In this document: positions 39,876 through 62,830 of the stretch, one piece after another
Position numbering within the stretch: the first letter of the stretch is position 1
Layout of the letters: each line of letters opens with the position of its first letter
Source of the DNA: Tahibacter amnicola
GTDB taxonomy: Bacteria; Pseudomonadota; Gammaproteobacteria; Xanthomonadales; Rhodanobacteraceae
Direction of reading: 5' to 3'
DNA length: 64,000 nt
Assembly (NCBI RefSeq): GCF_025398735.1
Contig: NZ_CP104694.1
Span: 4,739,465 to 4,803,464, forward strand
Position numbers and translations under genes: made by a program
The notes under the pieces: model-generated
What the model was told of the DNA's origin: nothing
What the model saw: only the letters and a program-made list of their open reading frames with translations
The model's database searches: none

Positions 39876-41249
39876 TCAATCAAACCCATCCTGAAACAGG
39901 TACCCCGTATCGATACGACCGACGACGTAGTCTTCTGCAGCCGTTTCGCAGGCGGCATCGACGTGGCCGGCAAGCAGCACGCCGCCGTGCCACGGCGTCA
40001 GGGTAGACAGGCGGATCTTCGCGGGATCGGCTGAACACCCGGCTGTCGTCGGTCGATAGACGACAGCGGTGCTGCCGTTGTTGCCAAACGGTGTTTCGAT
40101 GCGATCTTCCGCCGGCGTGTCGCCGACGTACGCCAGGCTCAGGTGTACTGCGACATCCGGCGTCGTTCCCACGAACGCCGTGGCACCGTGCAGGACGCGC
40201 CTGCCGGGAAGCAGCGCCAGATGCTGGCGTCCGTAGTCCACCTGGAGCGGCGTGGGCATACCACTGACCGTGGCATGCGGCATCATCAGGTAGTTGCTGC
40301 CGGACGCTCTGCACACCATGAGCACAGGTACGTAGCCATCGGGTTCATGGCGCAGCGCGGCAACCGCCAGCACACCGGGACGTACCAATTGCCCGCCGGA
40401 ACCAAAGTACGATGCGCTGCCCGCAGGGGGCGTACTGAACGTCGACACCCGCTCCAGCGACGAGCGCTGCAGGCTACCGCAGAAGGGCACGATACGCGAC
40501 GTGCCGACGATATCGGCATCACCGGCAATCCAGATGCTGCCATCGGGCGCCTCTACGGCTGCGTTGATACTGCGCGTGGCTGCGTCGCTGTCATACAGCT
40601 TTCCGGCCAGTAGCGTGCCCGTTGCACTCAGGCGCAGCGCGAAACCGCGATCCCGTTGCGCTGGATAGGCCATCCCGGCGACAAAGACGTTGCCGTCTGA
40701 CAATACGCTGATCACCATCGGTCGCTCCCGCCGGGCGGCGTAGCCGATGAAGCTGTCCAGGTCGATCGTCACAATGCCGCCCGAGCCGAAGGTGGTGTCC
40801 AGGTCTCCGGTCGCGCGGTTCAGGCGCACGATCTGGATCGCCTCTCCGCCGTTGGCATCCGTCGGTACCGTGCGTGCAATGAGCATGCGCCCCTGGTTAT
40901 CACACGCGCCCGGCGCCATCCGCAGCTTACCGTTTGGTTCAACCGCCGACGCTGCCGGCAGCATGGCGGTGGCCTTGCCGTCGTCGCTGAAGGTCGTGTC
41001 GTAATTGCCGTTCTCCAGCAGCCGGATCGTGACGATGCGATGCCCGTCCGAGGCGAGCCCCGCAATCGTCACGCGGCCGTTCGCCTCGACACAGGCCACG
41101 GAGGCTTCATCACGTTGACCGCTGCCGTTGACGGACTGAAAACCGTAGTGACGCAGCCCGGCATCGCCAAACCGCGTGTCCAGTGGCCCGTCGTGTGCCA
41201 GGACGGCAGCGCTGGAAAGCAGGGCGAACAGTGCGACGGTCAGTTTCAT
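39876..41249 (-). CDS. Exported delta-60-like repeat protein
   Basis: 457 residues with a signal peptide (MKLTVALFALLSSAAVLA). It contains repeats of the delta-60 type, each with a D-x-x-F-G/S-x-x-G pattern (LDTRFGDAGL, YDTTFSDDGKA, LDTTFGSGGI), expected to build a beta-propeller-like exported domain. It ends in LFQDGFD, a variant of the short terminal motif shared with other exported proteins in this window. Function unknown; likely surface or secreted. Confidence 0.75.
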   Translation of the reverse strand: MKLTVALFALLSSAAVLAHDGPLDTRFGDAGLRHYGFQSVNGSGQRDEASVACVEANGRVTIAGLASDGHRIVTIRLLENGNYDTTFSDDGKATAMLPAASAVEPNGKLRMAPGACDNQGRMLIARTVPTDANGGEAIQIVRLNRATGDLDTTFGSGGIVTIDLDSFIGYAARRERPMVISVLSDGNVFVAGMAYPAQRDRGFALRLSATGTLLAGKLYDSDAATRSINAAVEAPDGSIWIAGDADIVGTSRIVPFCGSLQRSSLERVSTFSTPPAGSASYFGSGGQLVRPGVLAVAALRHEPDGYVPVLMVCRASGSNYLMMPHATVSGMPTPLQVDYGRQHLALLPGRRVLHGATAFVGTTPDVAVHLSLAYVGDTPAEDRIETPFGNNGSTAVVYRPTTAGCSADPAKIRLSTLTPWHGGVLLAGHVDAACETAAEDYVVGRIDTGYLFQDGFD

Positions 41250-53224: not shown

Positions 53225-55279
53225 TTAGTTGGCGGGAGCTTCTTCGAAGTTGTCGGCGAAGATCGCGTCGACAACCGCTACCTGCGGGACCAGCGTTTCG
53301 GCGCTGTACGCCGCAGGCTCGCCCTGCTCGGCCACGTGCAGGTCGAAGTTGGCGGCCGTCGGGGCGGAATCAGCTTCGAACGAGAACGTGAACATCGTGC
53401 CCCAGTTGAGCGGGTTGAGCACCGGCGGGACCTGCGCGATCGGCGTGGGGTTTTCCGGCGCCGTCCAGGTGATGCGACCGTCGGCCACTTCGGCAGTCCA
53501 GTCGTTGGCGGTATCCACGTCACCATCGTCGAAGCGGAGGTTCGTCGCGGTGACGTTTTCCATCAGCGGCAGCGAGAAGGCGTCAAATCCGAAATTGTGG
53601 ATCACGCGATACCGCTTGGATTCATCCGCATCGTCCGAGTAAGCAGGCGTCCCCTGGGTGAGGCCGCGGGAGTAGTCGAAATTCGCCACCGCGTAGTCGT
53701 AGCGCCAGCGGCCATTCGGCAGCGCGGTGACTTTCACGGCCACGCGGGTGTGACCGCCCTCGCCCGCCACTTCCACATTGCGCTGGCTGTCACTGGAGAC
53801 GCTCGGATCGACCCAGCGGTTGATCGCCGGGCCCAGGCGCAGCGGCGACAGGTTGGCCACATTCCACTGGCTGCCGTAGGTGAACGACACCGGGCGGGTC
53901 GCCATGGTGTTGTAGATGTTGATGTCGTCGCGAACGATGTACCAGGACTCGAACAGGTAGGAAGCCGACGGATCGAGCTTGGATTCCTTCACGATCAGGC
54001 GCTGGCTGTACGCCGTGTTGCCCGGCGCATCTTCCGCGCCGTCGCAGTTGCGGTCGTAGATGGAGCCGCAGCGTCCCCACAGTGACTTGGACGGGATGAT
54101 CTCGCTGCGCGGGCCCAGGTCGCCGCTGCTGTCGTTGTTGCCGGTGCCGTAGGTGTCGCCGCAGGACCGGCCCAGCACGTGGCTGCCGTTGGAGCGGTCG
54201 CAATCGGCACCGGTATTGACGGTAAGAAAGGCATGCTTCACGCCGGACCGGCCGATCTGCTGGATGCGGCCGTCGCTGTCGATGCGATACAGGTTCCAGA
54301 TCAGGTAGGGATGCTGGTCGTTGTCGTAGGGCGCCTGGATACCGGTGAATTTCTCGTGCCAGGCGACATCGGCGGTATACAACGCCGCACTCTTGCCGAG
54401 TGGGTCGCCGGGGATCGTCTCGGCCGAAGTGCCGTTGTTGACGTTGTTCTTCAGCGTGGACGACGGAGTGAACACGATGTTGCCGTCGGTATTCGTGTTC
54501 GGGCCATCGCAGGTGCAGCCGGAGGTGCAGCCGAGCTGGTTGGTGCAGCGTGAATACTGTGCCGAGAAGGTCTGCATGAAGACGTCGGCCTGGTACTGCC
54601 CCGTGCCCGGCGCCGGCACGTCCTTGCCCGGCCAGTTGGGATTGCCAGCATCGCGCAGCGTCAGGCGCTGGCCGTCGGCACCGACGACATTCAGATTCAT
54701 GCGCAGCTGGGCGATTTCCAGATCCGCCAGCGCGCGGTCGCCCAGGCGGGCGGCGAGATCCGGATGAATGCGCAGATCCATCGTGCGGATTTCCAGGCGG
54801 GCGCCCTTGTCGGCGAGCTTGTACATCAGGCGATCGAGGTAGAACCAGGTCTTGCCGTCGGCGCCGACCAGGTCCAGCTCCTGCAGGCTGCCCTTGCGCG
54901 GACGCAGGCTGGCGTCAACGAGGGAGATCTGGCCATCCGGGAGATTCAGCCGGAAGCCGCCACGCAGCGTCAGGGTGCCGTCGACAAAGTGTTCAAAGTT
55001 GTAGCGGTCGACCTTGAACCGGACGCCGCCGAGATCGCGAATGGGTACCGCGATGAATCCCTTGCGATCCGGATCGCTGGTCTGGAAGCCAGCTTCCAGC
55101 GTGACGCCGGCATCGCGCAGGAGATCTTCGTTCCAGATGAAACCCAGCTCACCGCCGAATGCAGTCCAGACACCCGTTTCGGGCGAGCTGGCGGGCGGGG
55201 TGGTCTGCGCCAGGAGCGGTGCCCATGGCAAAGAAAGCAAAAGTGATAACGCAGCAATCCGTAAACGCGGTGCAAGCAT
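53225..55279 (-). CDS. Large exported protein, paralogue A of a three-member cluster
   Basis: 684 residues from the ATG at 55279, where a signal peptide begins (MLAPRLRIAALSLLLSLP); GGGGG lies upstream. It shares with paralogues B and C the core APYDNDQHPYLIWNLYRIDS, GRIQQIGRSGVKHAF, a Cys-rich DTYG/PRSEIIP stretch, LWGRCGSIYDRNCDG, SWYIVRDDINIYNTM and GPAINRWVDP. This core resembles an uncharacterised exported family with the pattern NLYR..GR..QIG.S..KH.F. It ends with IFADNFE five residues before its C-terminus. Function unknown. Confidence 0.85.
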   Translation of the reverse strand: MLAPRLRIAALSLLLSLPWAPLLAQTTPPASSPETGVWTAFGGELGFIWNEDLLRDAGVTLEAGFQTSDPDRKGFIAVPIRDLGGVRFKVDRYNFEHFVDGTLTLRGGFRLNLPDGQISLVDASLRPRKGSLQELDLVGADGKTWFYLDRLMYKLADKGARLEIRTMDLRIHPDLAARLGDRALADLEIAQLRMNLNVVGADGQRLTLRDAGNPNWPGKDVPAPGTGQYQADVFMQTFSAQYSRCTNQLGCTSGCTCDGPNTNTDGNIVFTPSSTLKNNVNNGTSAETIPGDPLGKSAALYTADVAWHEKFTGIQAPYDNDQHPYLIWNLYRIDSDGRIQQIGRSGVKHAFLTVNTGADCDRSNGSHVLGRSCGDTYGTGNNDSSGDLGPRSEIIPSKSLWGRCGSIYDRNCDGAEDAPGNTAYSQRLIVKESKLDPSASYLFESWYIVRDDINIYNTMATRPVSFTYGSQWNVANLSPLRLGPAINRWVDPSVSSDSQRNVEVAGEGGHTRVAVKVTALPNGRWRYDYAVANFDYSRGLTQGTPAYSDDADESKRYRVIHNFGFDAFSLPLMENVTATNLRFDDGDVDTANDWTAEVADGRITWTAPENPTPIAQVPPVLNPLNWGTMFTFSFEADSAPTAANFDLHVAEQGEPAAYSAETLVPQVAVVDAIFADNFEEAPAN

Positions 55280-55518
55280 GCGGAAAAACCCCCTTGATAA
55301 TGCGGTGCAAAAAACCGGGCTCGCCCGGTTCCTCGGGAAATCGACTCTGCAACAACCTGTGCTTCGCGCAACCGCCCTGCGCGTCGGCCCGGTTGACACC
55401 GAGAGACGCCGATTGCCACTGCACCAAACTTCACGAAATAACACCGACGCCCGTCACAAAGCAATGGCCGGTCCGGCCACCCGTCGCGCAAAATGGAACG
55501 TCTGACAACCTGTTGCGT

Positions 55519-57546
55519 TTACTCAAAATCGTCCGCAAAAAGCGCGTCAGGCACTCCCGGGGCCGGTCCCGGCACGACGGCGGAATGCGCCACGGGCGTT
55601 CCGGCCTGGGCAATGTGCAGGCCCACGCCGGTGTCAGCCGGACCGGTATTGGCGATAAACGAGAAACGGAACAAAACCCCCCAGTCCAGCGAGTGACTGA
55701 CCGGAGGCGTCATTGGCGGCGGCGAGGGATTGGCCGGCGCACTCCAGCGGACCTCGAAGCTGGCCGCCGTGGAGGTCCAGTCGTTGGCGGGATCGGTGTC
55801 GCCATCGGAAAAGCTGATGGCGGTCGGCACCACACCGGCCGGCAGGGAAACCGCAAAGGCGTCGTAGCCGAAGTTGTGAACCACACGCAGGCGCATGGCT
55901 GGATCAGCGTCGTCCACATGGCCGGGCGTGCCCGTGGTGACGGCACGGGCAAAATCCAGGTTCATGACAGCGTAGTCGTAGCGCCATTGCCCACCGCCCA
56001 GGCTCGTGACCTTCGCGGCAATCCGGCTGCGTCCTTCGGCCGTCGCGATGGCGACATTGCGCAGGTTGGGACCCGCGGCGGACGGATCGACCCAGCGGTT
56101 GATGGCCGGCCCGAGCCGGTAATTGGAACCGTTGACGACCGACCAGGGCCCGGGCGGATTCCATTGGAAGAACACCGGCGTCGAACCCATGGTGTTTTCC
56201 ACGTCCACGTCATCGCGGACGAGGTACCACGACTCCAGGAAGAACAAGGCACCCGCCGTGGCCGCGCCGGAACACTGCGACTCCCTCACCGTCAGCCGGT
56301 AGGCTGGGGACGGATTTGATGGCGCGTTGTTCACATTGTCGCAATCCGGATCATCCGTGGCGCCGCAACGCCCCCACAGCACCTGCGCCGGGACAATTTC
56401 GCTGCGCGGCGACAGCGCATAGGGGTAGTCATTGTTGCTGACGGAATAGGTGTCGTTGCAGCCCCGGTTGAGAATGTGATTGTCGGTGCCGCCCTCCAGG
56501 CAGCCGCTGTTGACCGTGAAGAAGGCGTGCTTGGTGCCGGAGCGGCCGATCTGGTCAATCCGGCCGGCAGCATCGACGCGGTAGAGGTTCCAGATCAGTA
56601 GCGGGTGCTGGTCGTTGTCGTAGGGCGCGAAGCTGCCGGAAAACTCCGCGTACCAGGGAATGTCGGCGGCATACAGGGCCTGGCTGGTGCCGTCCGGATC
56701 GCCCGATACCGTGGGCAGAAAGGCCCCGTCATTGACGTTGTTGCGCAGGCTTGAGGACGGCGTCACCACGACGGTGCCATCGTTCTCGCCGTCAGGTCCG
56801 TCGCAGAGGCCATGGCATTGGCGGTATTGGCCCAGCACGGCCGTCATGAAGACATCCGCCTGGTACACATTGCCGCCCGGCGCCGGCGTTCCCGGCCATT
56901 TCGGCTCGCCCGCGGGAACTGCCCAGTCCGACGCGTCGACGCCCTCCACGGCGACGTCCAGCCGAGCATCGGCGACCGACCACCCCGCCACGAAGGGCCG
57001 TCCCAGCCGCCGCGCCAGCGCGTCGCTTATCCGCACATCCATCGTGCTGGCACGCAAGCGGCGTCCGGCATCAGTGAGGCCCTGCATAAGATTGTCCACG
57101 TAGAACCAGACGATGCCGTCTGCATCCACCAGCATCAGCGACGGCGCACTGGCAGCGCGCGGCCGGATAACGATGTTCGACAGAACCAGCTGCGTATCGG
57201 GTAGCGCCAGCACGAGGCTGCCCTGGAAGCGCAGCTCGCCGTCGAGAAAGCCGCTGACCTGCCGCCGCACGACCGTGAACCGAAGGTTACCCCCGTCGGC
57301 GAGATCCAAGGCCACGAAGCCTTGCGCATCGGCGACACGCACCGGGCGCGTGCTGATGGCGCGGACGCCCAGCTCCGCCATCAGCTCCCGATTCCATAGC
57401 AGCGACACCGTGCCGCCGCGGGCGCTGGCGAGGGTCGCCGGCACGGCCGGGGGATCGGCCCCGGGCGTCGATGCCCACGAGTCAAGCGCAAGCAGGCAGA
57501 GCAGGATGAATCCTGCACCTGCCCTGCTTCGCCATCGGATACCCAT
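55519..57546 (-). CDS. Large exported protein, paralogue B
   Basis: 675 residues from the ATG at 57546; a GTG at 57573 is an alternative. A signal peptide is present (AGAGFILLCLLALDSWA). The same core as paralogue A is present: APYDNDQHPLLIWNLYRVDA, GRIDQIGRSGTKHAFFTVN, PRSEIVP, LWGRCGATDDPDC, SWYLVRDDVDVENTM and GPAINRWVDPS. It ends exactly with LFADDFE. It lies between the cytochrome gene and paralogue A on the same strand. Function unknown. Confidence 0.85.
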   Translation of the reverse strand: MGIRWRSRAGAGFILLCLLALDSWASTPGADPPAVPATLASARGGTVSLLWNRELMAELGVRAISTRPVRVADAQGFVALDLADGGNLRFTVVRRQVSGFLDGELRFQGSLVLALPDTQLVLSNIVIRPRAASAPSLMLVDADGIVWFYVDNLMQGLTDAGRRLRASTMDVRISDALARRLGRPFVAGWSVADARLDVAVEGVDASDWAVPAGEPKWPGTPAPGGNVYQADVFMTAVLGQYRQCHGLCDGPDGENDGTVVVTPSSSLRNNVNDGAFLPTVSGDPDGTSQALYAADIPWYAEFSGSFAPYDNDQHPLLIWNLYRVDAAGRIDQIGRSGTKHAFFTVNSGCLEGGTDNHILNRGCNDTYSVSNNDYPYALSPRSEIVPAQVLWGRCGATDDPDCDNVNNAPSNPSPAYRLTVRESQCSGAATAGALFFLESWYLVRDDVDVENTMGSTPVFFQWNPPGPWSVVNGSNYRLGPAINRWVDPSAAGPNLRNVAIATAEGRSRIAAKVTSLGGGQWRYDYAVMNLDFARAVTTGTPGHVDDADPAMRLRVVHNFGYDAFAVSLPAGVVPTAISFSDGDTDPANDWTSTAASFEVRWSAPANPSPPPMTPPVSHSLDWGVLFRFSFIANTGPADTGVGLHIAQAGTPVAHSAVVPGPAPGVPDALFADDFE

Positions 57547-57645
57547 TGCCGGACATCCACCGCTGACTGACACGCCGCCAGCCTAGCAACGCAGCGACGC
57601 AGGCTCAATTCACGTGCCGAGGAATCGGCGCGTGGGTGTCGGCCT

Positions 57646-59520
57646 CTACCGGCTGGCCGTCGGCGTCGTCGCGGTACCCGTATCGATCAGCTCGGGCGGT
57701 GACTTGCCGTAGCTGGGGTTGTTCCAGAGGTTGTACAGGTACTGGCCCCGGGAGACGTCCTGCGGACCGGTGTTGATGGGCGGCCGCGTATAGGGCGTCG
57801 TCGAGCACATGGTGTTTTCGGCAGGGATCGCGTTGGCGACCGAGAAATCCCTCAGGAATTCAATGTATTCGCGGCTGGAAGTCTGGTAGTGCAGTTCCGC
57901 CGTCGCCGTGAACGGCCCCACCGCGCCAGCGGGCAGGGCGACGGCATACTCGGTCACGTCGTAGTTCACCAGGCGCCCCGGCGATCCCTGGGCCGGGTAG
58001 GTGTAACCCACCGGCCGGGTTTCCAGGTCGTTGCCGCCCGAGAAGCCCAGCGGCGGGATGCGGTTGTCCTTGGCGATGCAGTTGTCCAGGACGAAATGGA
58101 ATTCGCGCGCACCACCGGCATTGCTGTGCTTGCAGGTCTGCGTGGCGTTGTCCCAGATACCGTGGATCGCCTCGTAGACCTTGGTTTGTGCGTCCGTGGT
58201 CAAGGTCGCTGTTGCGGGGTCGTAGGCACCTTTCTCGAACACGGTCGCGCCGTTGGTGTCGGCCACCTTTACGTGCAGCCACATCCGGCGCCCTTCCGAG
58301 TACCCCGTCGGCAGCTTGTGCCCGCTGAGATTGGTCACCTTGACGCGAAGACCCAGGCTGCCGGCGATGGACGCCGTGGGCGCCACATAGCTGGTGACGG
58401 TCGTATCGACCTGCGCACTGGACTGCAACAGGGCGCGGGCCCAGCCGATGGTGCGATCGAAATCCGCGCCGCGATTGAGGCCGGGATACTGCCCCTTGAG
58501 GAGGCCGGGTACCCAGGTGTTGCCGCCGACGAACTGGTGCGTGGCCAGATTGCCGGTGCGCGTGCCGGGCGGATCGTAGATACAGGCACGGGCTGCCGCG
58601 TCGGTGCTGTTGGGCATGTGGCAATGCTGGCAATTCTGTGCGCGGTGGATCTGCGGCAACTCCGTCGGAGTACCGCCGAAATTGTCGCGGAACAGCAGGT
58701 CGGAGAAATCACTCTGCTGCCATTCGCGGTAGGTCCGTTCCAGCGGAAATGCAAGTCCGGTGTCGGTGCCATCGGCCGTACGCAGGGTACGCAGCGGACC
58801 GTTGCTGCTGTCGGGGCTGCTGACGTTGTGGCAGATCCCGCAGATTTCGCTCGACTGGTGATACGACGAATAGGCCCACTCGTGCGGCGGCCCTTCGCCA
58901 TCGGCGTAGGTGTACGGGCCGCGACGGCATGGACCGTCGACACCGCCATTGCAGTTGCTGTCGTCCACCCAGGCATTGCCGTTGTTGGTGTAGCCGGGCT
59001 GATTGGCCGGCCCGTTCGGCATCAGGCGATGGCAGAAGTGACACGAAGTGCCGCCGTAGTCATTCCCGGAAAAGTCGGCGTCGTCGTGGTCGCCGAGCAG
59101 GAGGCAACCGTTGCCGCCAGAGCGGCCGCCCACGGTGGAGGGCTTCACGCGCCCTTCCAGGAAGGCTCCGGGTGCGTGACAGCGCAAGCAATATTCACCG
59201 ACATTGGGAAAGCCATTGGCGGCGCCGTCCGCATTGGCAACATCCAGCGCCGCCCAGAACACCGGGTCACGCGTGGCATTGGCCATCATCGAGCCGGGCC
59301 AGGTGCCGCCGGGCGTATTGCTGAAATCAGCGGCCTGGGAACCGCGATGGCACCCAATGCAGGTGCCCGAACCGTACAGCTCGTGCGTCAAGGGCGGCTG
59401 GGTACCGTTGGGGGTGTAGTCCGTCGTGCCCAGCACTTTCCACCAGGCGCCGATATCGGCGTGGGCCGATCCACACAGCGCCAGGAACATCACCATCGCC
59501 ATCACTCGATACAGACGCAC
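57646..59520 (-). CDS. Exported pentaheme cytochrome c
   Basis: 624 residues from a GTG at 59520, preceded by GGGGGACGAGG; a signal peptide follows (MAMVMFLALCGSAHA). Five CxxCH heme-binding motifs are visible: CIGCH, CLRCH, CHFCH, CGICH and CQHCH, all in the N-terminal half. The C-terminal half is beta-rich without hemes and contains LSGHKLPTGYSEGRRMWLHV, as in cytochrome c554-like multiheme proteins. Likely periplasmic or exported electron-transfer protein. Flanked by paralogues B and C, which suggests a shared function. Confidence 0.93.
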   Translation of the reverse strand: MRLYRVMAMVMFLALCGSAHADIGAWWKVLGTTDYTPNGTQPPLTHELYGSGTCIGCHRGSQAADFSNTPGGTWPGSMMANATRDPVFWAALDVANADGAANGFPNVGEYCLRCHAPGAFLEGRVKPSTVGGRSGGNGCLLLGDHDDADFSGNDYGGTSCHFCHRLMPNGPANQPGYTNNGNAWVDDSNCNGGVDGPCRRGPYTYADGEGPPHEWAYSSYHQSSEICGICHNVSSPDSSNGPLRTLRTADGTDTGLAFPLERTYREWQQSDFSDLLFRDNFGGTPTELPQIHRAQNCQHCHMPNSTDAAARACIYDPPGTRTGNLATHQFVGGNTWVPGLLKGQYPGLNRGADFDRTIGWARALLQSSAQVDTTVTSYVAPTASIAGSLGLRVKVTNLSGHKLPTGYSEGRRMWLHVKVADTNGATVFEKGAYDPATATLTTDAQTKVYEAIHGIWDNATQTCKHSNAGGAREFHFVLDNCIAKDNRIPPLGFSGGNDLETRPVGYTYPAQGSPGRLVNYDVTEYAVALPAGAVGPFTATAELHYQTSSREYIEFLRDFSVANAIPAENTMCSTTPYTRPPINTGPQDVSRGQYLYNLWNNPSYGKSPPELIDTGTATTPTASR

Positions 59521-59696
59521 CCTCGTCCCCCTGCTTGATGCCGCGCGACCGCAGCCGGTCGCCTGCGGTCCTGTGCTGATAAGTACGCCAGCGCACCCAT
59601 GCGCCGGCATTAATTCCGGTCCCGGCGTTGTCCTGCCCAGCTCCGGGACAATAGCCCCGATGCCGCGTGACGGACAACCGAAGCCGACAACCCGCG

Positions 59697-61691
59697 TCAA
59701 TCGGCTGCCGGCCGGTGCCGCACCGGCAACGCGTCCCGGTAGGTTTCTGGCCGTCGACGTGGTGGCTGGACCGGAAGTACCGGCACCAGTGTCGCCACGG
59801 CCCAGCGCGCGGCACCGCTACCGACCGTCGCGGTCCCGTCCGTTGGAGGGCGGTCGGATACCAACGTAAAGGACAGGCTCTTACCCCAGTCCAGATCCGC
59901 CGTGCTGGTCTGCCAGACCGCCGCGGCCGGCTCACGCGACGCCGACCACTGGCCCGGTTCGCCGGCAACCGGCAGGAATCCCATCGCGCTGATGAAGGCC
60001 TGCGGATCCGTGGCGACCGCCAGTCGATCCAACCCCCGCATCGCTGTCACGCGCAGATTGGGCTCGGTGCCTTCGGTGGTTGCGCTCGCGAAATCCAGAT
60101 TGAACAACACGTAGTCATAGCGATAGCGGCCATCCTGCCGGACAACGCGAACGGCGAGCTCGGCACGACCGAGCGGCGTCAGTATGGGCGAGGTCATCGA
60201 CCAGCCGTCGGGTGACGCCAGGTTGCGCCAGCGATGCACCATCGCACCGTTGGTGAAATCGGTAACGTCGAATCGCCAGGCATAGGCATGCGGATCAGCG
60301 CCCTGCCCCGGTCGCTTCTGCGGACGTACCTCCATCAGGCCCATGGTGTTCCACGGATCGATGTCGTCACGCACGACGTACCAGTACTCGACGAACCAGC
60401 GTGCGCCCGGGTGCCTTGCCGGATCGATTTCCGCCTCGCGCACGGCTAGATGCTTGAGCGGGCTGTAGGCATCGTCGGGCACGATCTCGGCATCGCCGCC
60501 ATCACGCTGGCCATCGCAATTGGCGTCGTACAACGAGCCGCAGCGCCCCCAGCGGGCGGTGAAGGGAATGATCTCGGCACGCGGCGCCAATCCGCGCGAA
60601 TAATCATTGCTGAAGCCCCCGTAGGTGTCTTCGCATCCCGGATACAGGGCTTCGTCTTCCTGGCAACCGCAGGCGCCGTTGATCGTATGAAACGCATGCT
60701 TGGCCGCCGACGCCCCGACCTGCTGCAAGCGCCCATCCGGGCCCAGGCGATACAGGTTCCACACCAGGAAGGGGTGCTGGTCGTTACCATAGGGCGCCGA
60801 TGGGGGCGAGAATTTCGGATGCCAGGCCACCGTGGCCGTGCCGGTATTGCGCAGGCTCGCATCCGGCGCGAGAACGACCGTGCCGTCGGTACTGTCGGCG
60901 GTGCACGGCAACGTATGGCCGCCCTGCCCGTCCGGGCGCCCGCAGCGATACACGTTGACGCCATCCGGTTCGGATTCGTCCCAGTTGGTGGCCAGGCGGA
61001 TCATCTGCACGTCTGCAAACGCCGTCGAGGATGGCCATACGGCCTGGCAGACGCCGCCGGAGGCACCCGTCGAATCGCGTCGCGCCGGTTCACTTTTCCG
61101 GGTTTCCACCTGTGCACCACCGACCAGCTGCCCCGTCAGCTCGGCATTCCCCAGCCGCTTCGCCAGCGCAGGACCGATCCGCAGGTCCAGGTGGCGCAGC
61201 GACAGCACATTCCCGGGCCCGAGGAAGTGATGCACGTGGTCGAGGGTGAACCAGGCCTGCCCCGACGCATCGGCCAACTCCAGCGCAGCACGTCCGCCCG
61301 GCCGACGGCGAATCTGGAAGCGGCGAAGGTCAAGCGACCCGTCACGCCATTGCAGAACGAACCCGCCCTGGTGGTGAACCTGGCTTTCCTCCAGCGCACT
61401 GAACACGCCGCGCTGCTGGCGATAGGCGAACCCGGTCTGCGCATCCACGGCAAAGCGCAGGGTGATGTAATCGCCAGCGTCGGGCGAATGGCGCTGCGCG
61501 GGCTCCACGCCGGCAATACGAAGGCCCAGCGGCGTCAGCGCCCCCTGATTGAGCCACAGCGTGGTCTGCCCCCCACGCGAATACCAGACCTGCGGCGCCG
61601 CCGACTGAGGTGATGCATCGGTCGCCTCGATTGAACCGGCAAATACCAACGCCACGCCTGTCAGGAAGGCCCGCAGCCCGCAGTTGATCAT
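59697..61691 (-). CDS. Large exported protein, paralogue C
   Basis: 664 residues. The ATG at 61691 overlaps the dapE stop codon (ATGA), so its translation is probably coupled to dapE. A signal peptide is present ([16 protein letters not shown]). The shared core reads [67 protein letters not shown] and [17 protein letters not shown]. Unlike A and B it lacks the terminal motif and ends in a basic, proline-rich tail ([19 protein letters not shown]). Function unknown. Confidence 0.85.
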
Positions 61692-62830
61692 CCGATTGCG
61701 CCCGGAGCCAGCAGTCGCTCGGCGATCCGCAGATACAGCGACGGCAACCGTTCCAGATCCGCCAGGTCGACGTGTTCGTCGAGCTTGTGGATCGTGGCAT
61801 TTACCGGCCCGACTTCCACCACTTCCGCACCCAGCGGCGCGATGAAGCGGCCGTCGGAGGTGCCACCGCCCGTGCTCGGGTTGGTCTGCAGGCCGCAGAC
61901 GTCGGCGATGGCCGCCGTCACGGCGCTGCGCAGCGCCCCCTCGCGGGTGAGGAAGGGTTCGCCGGAAAGATCCCAGCGCAGATCAAATCGCAGCTCATGC
62001 CCGCGCAGCACGCTCTCCACCGCCGCCTTCAACTCTTCGGCCGTGCTTTCGGTGCAGTAGCGGAAATTGAAGACCGCGTCGAGCGAACCGGGAACGACGT
62101 TGTTCGCGCCGGTACCCGAGCCGATGTTGGACACCTGGAAGGAGGTCGGCGGGAATTCGCTGTTGCCCGAGTCCCAGCGTGTCGCTGCCAGCTGCGCCAG
62201 GGCGGGCGCGAAGCGGTGGATCGGATTGTCGGCTTTCTCCGGATACGCCACGTGCCCCTGGACGCCATGGACGGTCAGGTAGCCCGAGAGCGAACCGCGG
62301 CGGCCGACGCGGATCACGTCGCCGAGCTGCGCGGTCGACGAGGGCTCGCCGACGACACACCAGTGGATGGGCTGGCCGCGATCCCGGAACGTCTGCGCCA
62401 CCCGGCGGATACCATCTTTCGCCGCACCTTCCTCATCGCTGGTGAGCAGCAGTGCGATGGTACCGGCGTGCTGCGGGTGCGCTGCCACGAACTGCTCCAG
62501 GGCCAGCACCATCGCCGCGACAGAACCTTTCATGTCCGCGGCGCCGCGGCCGTAGAGCTTTCCGTCGCGAATCACGGGTACGAAGGGCTCGCTGGCCCAC
62601 TGCGACGGCGGGCCGCTGGGCACGACATCCGTGTGTCCCAGGAAAGCCAGCACCGGCGCCCCGGTGCCATGCGTGACCCAGATGTTGTCCACTTCGCCAA
62701 AACGCAGGTTTTCCACCTGGAAACCCGCCTGCGCCAGGCGCCCGCCGATCAGCTCCTGGCACCCGGCGTCATCCGGCGTCACGGAAGCCCGGCGGATCAG
62801 TTCACTGGTTAATTCACGTATTGCTGACAT
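61688..62830 (-). CDS. dapE: Succinyl-diaminopimelate desuccinylase
   Basis: 380 residues. The M20 metallopeptidase signatures are present: [33 protein letters not shown] and [11 protein letters not shown], with [23 protein letters not shown] in the dimerisation lid. It removes succinate from N-succinyl-LL-diaminopimelate in lysine and peptidoglycan precursor synthesis. It lies with yffB and dapD on the same strand. Confidence 0.96.

Follow-up and report, generated by a model that had tools for sequence, protein, structure and literature searches.

A 64,000-nucleotide stretch of the Tahibacter amnicola genome (hereafter the window; contig NZ_CP104694.1, positions 4,739,465 to 4,803,464, from a single-contig genome of 6.46 Mb) encodes three paralogous and apparently exported proteins, A, B and C (the 'core' proteins), together with a pentaheme c-type cytochrome that lies between A and B. 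The association between this core family and the cytochrome is real, the middle domain of the core is probably, if not provenly, a remote and re-modelled relative of lysyl oxidase (LOX), and many relatives place a homologue of copper amine oxidases beside the same cytochrome. The reading favoured here, with a probability of about 0.35, is that core and cytochrome form a quinoprotein amine dehydrogenase system, in which a lysine-tyrosylquinone (LTQ)-type cofactor would deliver electrons to the pentaheme cytochrome.

The core proteins and the pentaheme cytochrome

Positions below are those of the window, and lengths are given in amino acids (aa).

59697..61691, minus strand: gene A, core protein, 664 aa; HtaA-like N, LOX-like middle and Ig-like C domains by alignment to modelled B
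57646..59700, minus strand: pentaheme c-type cytochrome open reading frame (ORF); five CXXCH motifs; family A4; likely true start GTG at 59520
55519..57573, minus strand: gene B, core protein, 684 aa, structure modelled; C-terminal tag ALFADDFE
53225..55279, minus strand: gene C, core protein, 684 aa; inside a longer frame reaching 55444; C-terminal tag AIFADNFE

A sequence-only reading of the window had proposed three paralogous exported proteins on one strand, and this is borne out by the ORFs, by pairwise identities of 48% (B-C) and 35% (B-A), and by a search of the window genome with B that matched only these three proteins (E values 0, 1.4e-193 and 1.8e-67, far beyond chance). An N-terminal hydrophobic stretch can be seen by eye in each protein, all three of which appear to be exported; for B, an internal ATG at 57546 is as possible a start as 57573. 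The motif GPAINRWVDP had been misplaced, as it occurs in the proteins at 55519 (B) and 53225 (C) and not in that at 59697 (A). The claim of a pentaheme cytochrome with a signal peptide among these genes also holds, since five CXXCH motifs are found between A and B and the probable GTG start at 59520 would provide a signal peptide, leaving a gap of ~176 nucleotides after A.

The profile search that had been suggested for the shared core placed it in no Pfam, NCBIfam or PDB sequence family: scans of A, B and C against Pfam and NCBIfam gave no match worth naming, a PDB sequence search gave no credible match, and no library family was common to more than one of 32 aligned core members. A match to PRP3 at E 0.44 was judged to be chance, and a plasmid search with the core returned no matches. 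The core can therefore still be described as an uncharacterised family of exported proteins that has a redox partner: no library names it, and many genomes show it linked to the cytochrome.

All 19 aligned cytochrome members contain five CXXCH motifs, and only four His residues besides those in the motifs are invariant. The closest known proteins are reached weakly and over a GHKLPTG segment: the window cytochrome has profile matches to a pentaheme cytochrome c552 (5ze8) at E 0.0013 and to the MccSep/ExtKL multiheme cytochromes through NF040886 at E 0.0025. The NF040886 score is 16.4 of 250 bits, far under the family cut-off, and, unlike c552 and MccSep/ExtKL, the window cytochrome belongs to a subfamily of its own, whose 19 aligned members all have five hemes.

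Co-occurrence of core and cytochrome

The core was counted at E values up to 0.001, and a cytochrome match was called strong below E 1e-100, a cut-off chosen by the analyst. In a sample of 200 genomes from the order, the core was present in 96 and a strong cytochrome in 49, of which 48 also hold the core (Fisher p = 4.5e-18, in a test that is not independent because the sampled genomes are related). With cytochromes counted at E up to 0.001, 66 of 78 genomes held the core, and 30 of the 96 core genomes had no cytochrome match at all; among 61 relatives, at the same threshold, the core was found in 30 and the cytochrome in 26. This survey had been proposed as a check by the sequence-only reading, and the association it had drawn is upheld in that a strong cytochrome nearly always comes with the core, and narrowed in that the converse is not universal. 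In 21 genomes of the order sample the core and a strong cytochrome lie on one contig (one pair counted in each), within 1 kb of each other in 11 and within 6 kb in 16.

A separate set of loci was found with peptide patterns containing DQHP and KHA, and keeping the best 80 of 149 matches gave 76 loci from Tahibacter, Dokdonella, Aquimonas, Luteimonas, Chiayiivirga, Pseudofulvimonas, Rubrivivax and others. A cytochrome is present in 40 of these, with all 49 copies on the strand of the core, and lies within 300 bp of the core in 28 of the 40 (longest-ORF coordinates). The other 36 loci lack any ORF with at least three CXXCH, an absence that says little for some of them because they end near the core gene; 62 loci reach at least 14 kb, and 36 of these carry the cytochrome. 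All 13 loci from Burkholderiales or β-proteobacteria are without it. In 30 cytochrome-less loci no widely common gene cluster was found besides the core, the largest partner cluster that bridges the Burkholderiales and other such loci being confined to four of them.

When cytochrome linkage was mapped on a tree of 101 cores (65 linked, 25 not, 11 undecided), 9 changes were required, versus 22 in shuffles. Linkage is thus passed on by descent and was gained or lost several times, and it is found in each of the two old paralogue groups (A on the one hand, B and C on the other).

In three loci of one genus (L049, L053 and L054; cluster c12), the core and the pentaheme cytochrome are separated by another five-heme cytochrome, 554-582 aa long; the copy scanned, in L054, has an N-terminal carboxypeptidase-regulatory-like domain. 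At the second site of another genome (G022, locus L178), the core gene is probably a broken copy, since it is divided between two frames, 440 and 318 aa long, that overlap.

A lysyl oxidase-like middle domain

Structure prediction, another check suggested for the shared core, was run on B and gave a confident three-domain model (predicted local distance difference test score, pLDDT, 88.8). The N-terminal domain resembles HtaA heme-uptake domains (6jsc_A, Z 11.8 over 146 residues at 3.3 Å; Foldseek E 2.5e-4 to 6jsc_B), and residues 1-200 of the 32 aligned cores contain no invariant Tyr or His, the HtaA ligand positions being unaligned. The C-terminal domain resembles Ig-like proteins, among them the copper protein YcnI, at Z about 10. 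For the middle domain, the best solved match is the catalytic domain of human LOXL2 (5ze3_B, Z 8.6 over 165 residues at 4.7 Å), which spans residues 199-461 of the model and 545-754 of the chain and is the only one of the 50 matches listed that is confined to this domain. As LOX had been proposed earlier from a KHAF...GCxDTY pattern, this fold comparison was a test able to fail.

The same stretch contains the most conserved residues of the family. In the 32 aligned cores K311 is the sole invariant Lys, C335 the sole Cys, D284 and D337 the sole Asp, and H286 and H312 the sole His residues, with invariant Tyr at 339, 413 and 497 (alignment numbering). In a larger core set K311, C335, D337 and Y339 are kept in all 98 ungapped rows, of which two have Gln for H312, and the same four residues are kept in 52 of 52 cores that include 11 divergent relatives; these 11, three of which are only 422-437 aa long, also retain H312. 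Conservation of DQHP and KHA in the 76-locus set is partly the product of selection because the search patterns contain them, and Tyr339, Asp337 and Cys335 lie outside those patterns. The candidate cofactor residues in the window are as follows.

60699..60701, minus strand: A Lys331, candidate cofactor Lys (alignment K311)
60621..60623, minus strand: A Tyr357, candidate cofactor Tyr (alignment Y339)
56530..56532, minus strand: B Lys348, candidate cofactor Lys
56446..56448, minus strand: B Tyr376, candidate cofactor Tyr
54236..54238, minus strand: C Lys348, candidate cofactor Lys
54149..54151, minus strand: C Tyr377, candidate cofactor Tyr

Among profile alignments over the full domain, the best one, whose score is not above that of shuffles, pairs core K311, C335, D337 and Y339 with K653, C685, D687 and Y689 of LOXL2. 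In passages of one report on LOXL2, Lys653 and Tyr689 are the LTQ precursors, His626-x-His628-x-His630 is the predicted copper site and Cys663-Cys685 is a disulfide (PMC9180022). The spacing from Lys to Cys (+10) and from Cys to Tyr (+4) is equal in B and LOXL2.

Profile tests made with one and with five LOX sequences gave no significant score. A reversed template scored 14.5 versus 17.0 for the domain, and 9.1 versus 16.2 for the short segment. With hidden Markov models (HMMs) of segments, 13, 6 and 2 of 2000 shuffles came up to the LOXL2 score, as did 0, 2 and 2 of 657 native decoys. A plasmid search for further LOX sequences yielded Streptomyces and one Gemmatirosa record, and two Arcobacter candidates at E 4 were set aside as chance. 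A search of 200 phylum genomes with the lysyl oxidase family profile, PF01186, gave no matches, a result to be read beside control genomes that were also unmatched.

Compared with the lysyl oxidase family (PF01186, which includes LOXL2 and bacterial or archaeal LOX), the core comes closest in its predicted middle-domain fold, for which LOXL2 is the best match at a score near the chance range, in its apparent export, and in a Lys and a CxDxY that the best alignment, itself not above shuffles, lines up with the LTQ precursors. It differs in having no Pfam match, in replacing the HxHxH copper triad by xxDxH, and in adding HtaA-like and Ig-like domains and a cytochrome neighbour. The core was not filed as a lysyl oxidase because neither the PF01186 profile nor the copper motif was found in it, and the link to LOX is rated as probable rather than proven because sequence profiles do no better than shuffles.

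A copper amine oxidase homologue in relatives

In many relatives, two further genes lie downstream of the cytochrome: c3, and c7, whose product is lipoprotein-like and about 215 aa long. In the order sample c3 occurs in 31 genomes, all with the core and 30 with the cytochrome, from which it is 41-794 bp away in 30 of the 31; it is also present in 20 of the 76 loci, and c7 lies directly upstream of 23 of 26 c3 genes.

The c3 protein is a copper-amine-oxidase homologue. Its model, of pLDDT only 66.9, matches copper amine oxidase at Foldseek E 7e-12 and the E. coli enzyme at Z 24 over 296 residues, and its profile matches that of six amine-oxidase-family sequences (three full-length, three short) at E 1.5e-15 over 333 columns. 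A Pfam scan of three c3 proteins stayed below the gathering score, with one at 17.1 bits (cut-off 27) and two unmatched. In fold, profile and the register of three sites, c3 is like the copper amine oxidases (PF01179): D86, Y173, H205 and H207, which we take to be the base Asp, the topaquinone Tyr and the copper HxH, are each conserved in 11 of 11 sequences. It is unlike them in that the third copper position holds Asp337 instead of His in 11 of 11, in that Tyr173 is flanked as W-Y-x-Y instead of the N-Y-D/E consensus, and in that c3, at about 390 aa, is the catalytic domain alone. The N-terminal part of amine oxidases is weakly resembled by the separate lipoprotein c7 (E 9e-4, probability 23%).

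In one genome of the same class (G133, loci L153-L159), several clustered amine-oxidase homologues of about 390-400 aa carry HLHNFFWRLDFDL, and their third copper position is occupied by His; these proteins look like intermediates between c3 and the classic copper amine oxidases.

A proposed amine dehydrogenase module and its alternatives

Both LOX and copper amine oxidases are known to act as oxidases that reduce oxygen. In quinohemoprotein and tryptophan-tryptophylquinone amine dehydrogenases, a quinone is made from protein residues and electrons pass to heme c; these enzymes are like the proposed module in both respects and unlike the core in fold and cofactor. In the favoured reading, the invariant Lys and Tyr of the core would form an LTQ-type cofactor that oxidises primary amines outside the cytoplasm, either free or as lysines on surface proteins. 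Electrons would pass to the pentaheme cytochrome and not straight to oxygen, so that the enzyme would act as a dehydrogenase instead of an oxidase. The same cytochrome would, in many relatives, also serve a second and unrelated quinone-type enzyme (c3 with its lipoprotein). The quinoprotein dehydrogenase is favoured because two unrelated quinone-type amine oxidase folds occur around one cytochrome, an arrangement that suggests a module handling amines and electrons and that is hard to explain otherwise. In this way, the earlier proposal of a 'redox or polymer-modifying module' is sharpened by the LOX-like middle domain and by the copper-amine-oxidase homologue of relatives, and qualified by a cytochrome that does not accompany every core.

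A number of observations weigh against this reading. With respect to the cytochrome, 48 of the 96 core genomes in the order sample are without a strong match, weaker cytochrome relatives occur without the core in 12 of the 78 genomes, and in a class sample of 369 genomes cytochrome profile matches, mostly weak, were found in 36 versus 6 with the core; of the 21 one-contig genomes, five have the two genes 24-37 kb apart. The LOXL2 match, at Z 8.6, is just above the chance range of the tool, and it was not among the best 50 Foldseek matches, surfacing only when the Foldseek candidates were aligned a second time. The profile score of core against LOX is not significant (E 0.17-0.18) and was matched by 16 of 150 and 10 of 150 column shuffles; the one segment HMM alignment to LOXL2 that was printed is out of register; four bacterial LOX scored no better than 93-914 shuffles in the segment HMMs; and PF01186 matched 0 of 32 core members at E up to 10 (HMMER filters on). 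In gene C the first Cys is at +12, two residues later than in B, and the Cys pair is absent from the four bacterial LOX, which keep K-x-x-F and D-T-Y. At the copper site, position 282 varies and D284 and H286 are kept in 46 and 51 of 52 cores. Copper use by the core is doubtful on sequence grounds because of its xxDxH motif and because the His core, like the Lys and Tyr, is treated as needed for activity in passages of a survey of LOX evolution (PMC4448552). Finally, c3 was not found in the window genome, so the window holds a smaller form, of three cores and the cytochrome.

Three other explanations were weighed, which we rank below the dehydrogenase in the order given here. It is possible, and we hold it to be almost as likely as the dehydrogenase, that the core is a non-catalytic surface protein of three stacked β domains, with a role in adhesion or the envelope, which keeps its Lys, Tyr and Cys for folding, while the cytochrome carries out extracellular electron transfer alone and merely shares the locus. 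The mostly β model of B, in which the HtaA-like and Ig-like matches outscore LOXL2, would fit such a protein, as would the non-significant LOX profile link, the loss of the copper motif and the 36 loci without a cytochrome, 26 of which are 14 kb or longer; the crowding of invariant D284, H286, K311, H312, C335, D337, Y339, R353 and E355 into one active-site-like stretch argues against it, as does the near-constant presence of the core with a strong cytochrome.

We consider it doubtful that the core is an oxygen-using LOX-like cross-linker of cell-surface proteins whose cofactor is matured, or whose peroxide is removed, by the cytochrome. The diheme enzyme MauG, which matures tryptophan tryptophylquinone, illustrates such a role. 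The core has lost metal ligands but kept Lys and Tyr, so it may depend on a different oxidant, and because only four His beyond the five CXXCH are invariant in the cytochrome, one heme may be open; in addition, two cytochrome-less Tahibacter cores (L133 and L140) adjoin very large proteins, that of L133 being a surface protein by its SdrD/GEVED Pfam matches. Cores without a nearby cytochrome, however, keep the same Lys and Tyr, and there is no sign of surface-protein substrates within the window. The large proteins, of about 2000 aa, lie just downstream of the cores in two Tahibacter species (L133:12050-18046 and L140:11985-18017), and the one in L133, which has SdrD, GEVED and DUF11 domains, is a possible substrate of a LOX-like enzyme.

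That core and cytochrome stay together by descent alone, with no joint function, seems improbable. Linkage does cluster on the core tree and the same dapE context recurs among neighbourhoods, but adjacency is also found in another context (L046 and L047), both old paralogue groups are cytochrome-linked, and only 1 of 49 genomes has a strong cytochrome without the core.

A broader proposal, which we regard as speculative and unlikely, is that two unrelated copper quinoprotein folds, the LOX type with Lys-Tyr and the copper amine oxidase type with Tyr, were both turned from oxidase to dehydrogenase by His-to-Asp changes at the metal site, and feed one shared pentaheme cytochrome that may also make the cofactor, thereby constituting a new amine-dehydrogenating class.

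In open-licence PubMed Central full text, nothing was found that links lysyl oxidase or copper amine oxidase with a multiheme cytochrome, and nothing relevant on a quinoprotein amine dehydrogenase, or on Tahibacter, with a multiheme cytochrome. According to the abstract of PMC6452851, what prokaryotic lysyl oxidases do is enigmatic. The present results hint at a system, so far undescribed, that oxidises amines and is connected to heme electron carriers. If so, bacteria could draw on amines outside the cell or alter surface proteins, with electrons passing to heme, through a widespread exported LOX-like family coupled to a multiheme cytochrome, and the metal need of LTQ and topaquinone biogenesis could be tested through natural His-to-Asp variants.

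Neighbouring genes and a C-terminal tag

On the minus strand the gene order is a dapD-like gene (identified by eye), an ArsC-family gene, dapE, A, the cytochrome, B and C, and C is followed by a convergent penicillin-amidase-family gene.

61688..62830, minus strand: dapE, M20 peptidase family, upstream neighbour of A

The end of dapE and the start of A share four bases, ATGA, and the dapE context is found in 11 of 21 neighbourhoods, the window included. The coupling to dapE that had been read from the window looks like local synteny: a functional role for dapE was dropped because the core-cytochrome cluster occurs elsewhere without it (L046 and L047), and the adjacency is thought to be synteny only.

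Many exported-looking proteins end in a tag like (I/L)F-x-D-G-F-E, including those encoded at 55519-57573, 53225-55444 and 39876-41249 of the window. By a loose pattern, the tag is present in 20 of 31 cores, 8 of 11 c3 proteins and 3 of 3 second cytochromes, in 0 of 19 pentaheme cytochromes and in 3 of 621 other predicted proteins. NCBIfam sorting models matched none of six tagged proteins. In the window genome, F-x-D-G-F-E/D gave 41 matches versus 0 in a backward control, and 24 of the 30 inspected lie within 20 residues of a stop. The tag is possibly an undescribed sorting signal.

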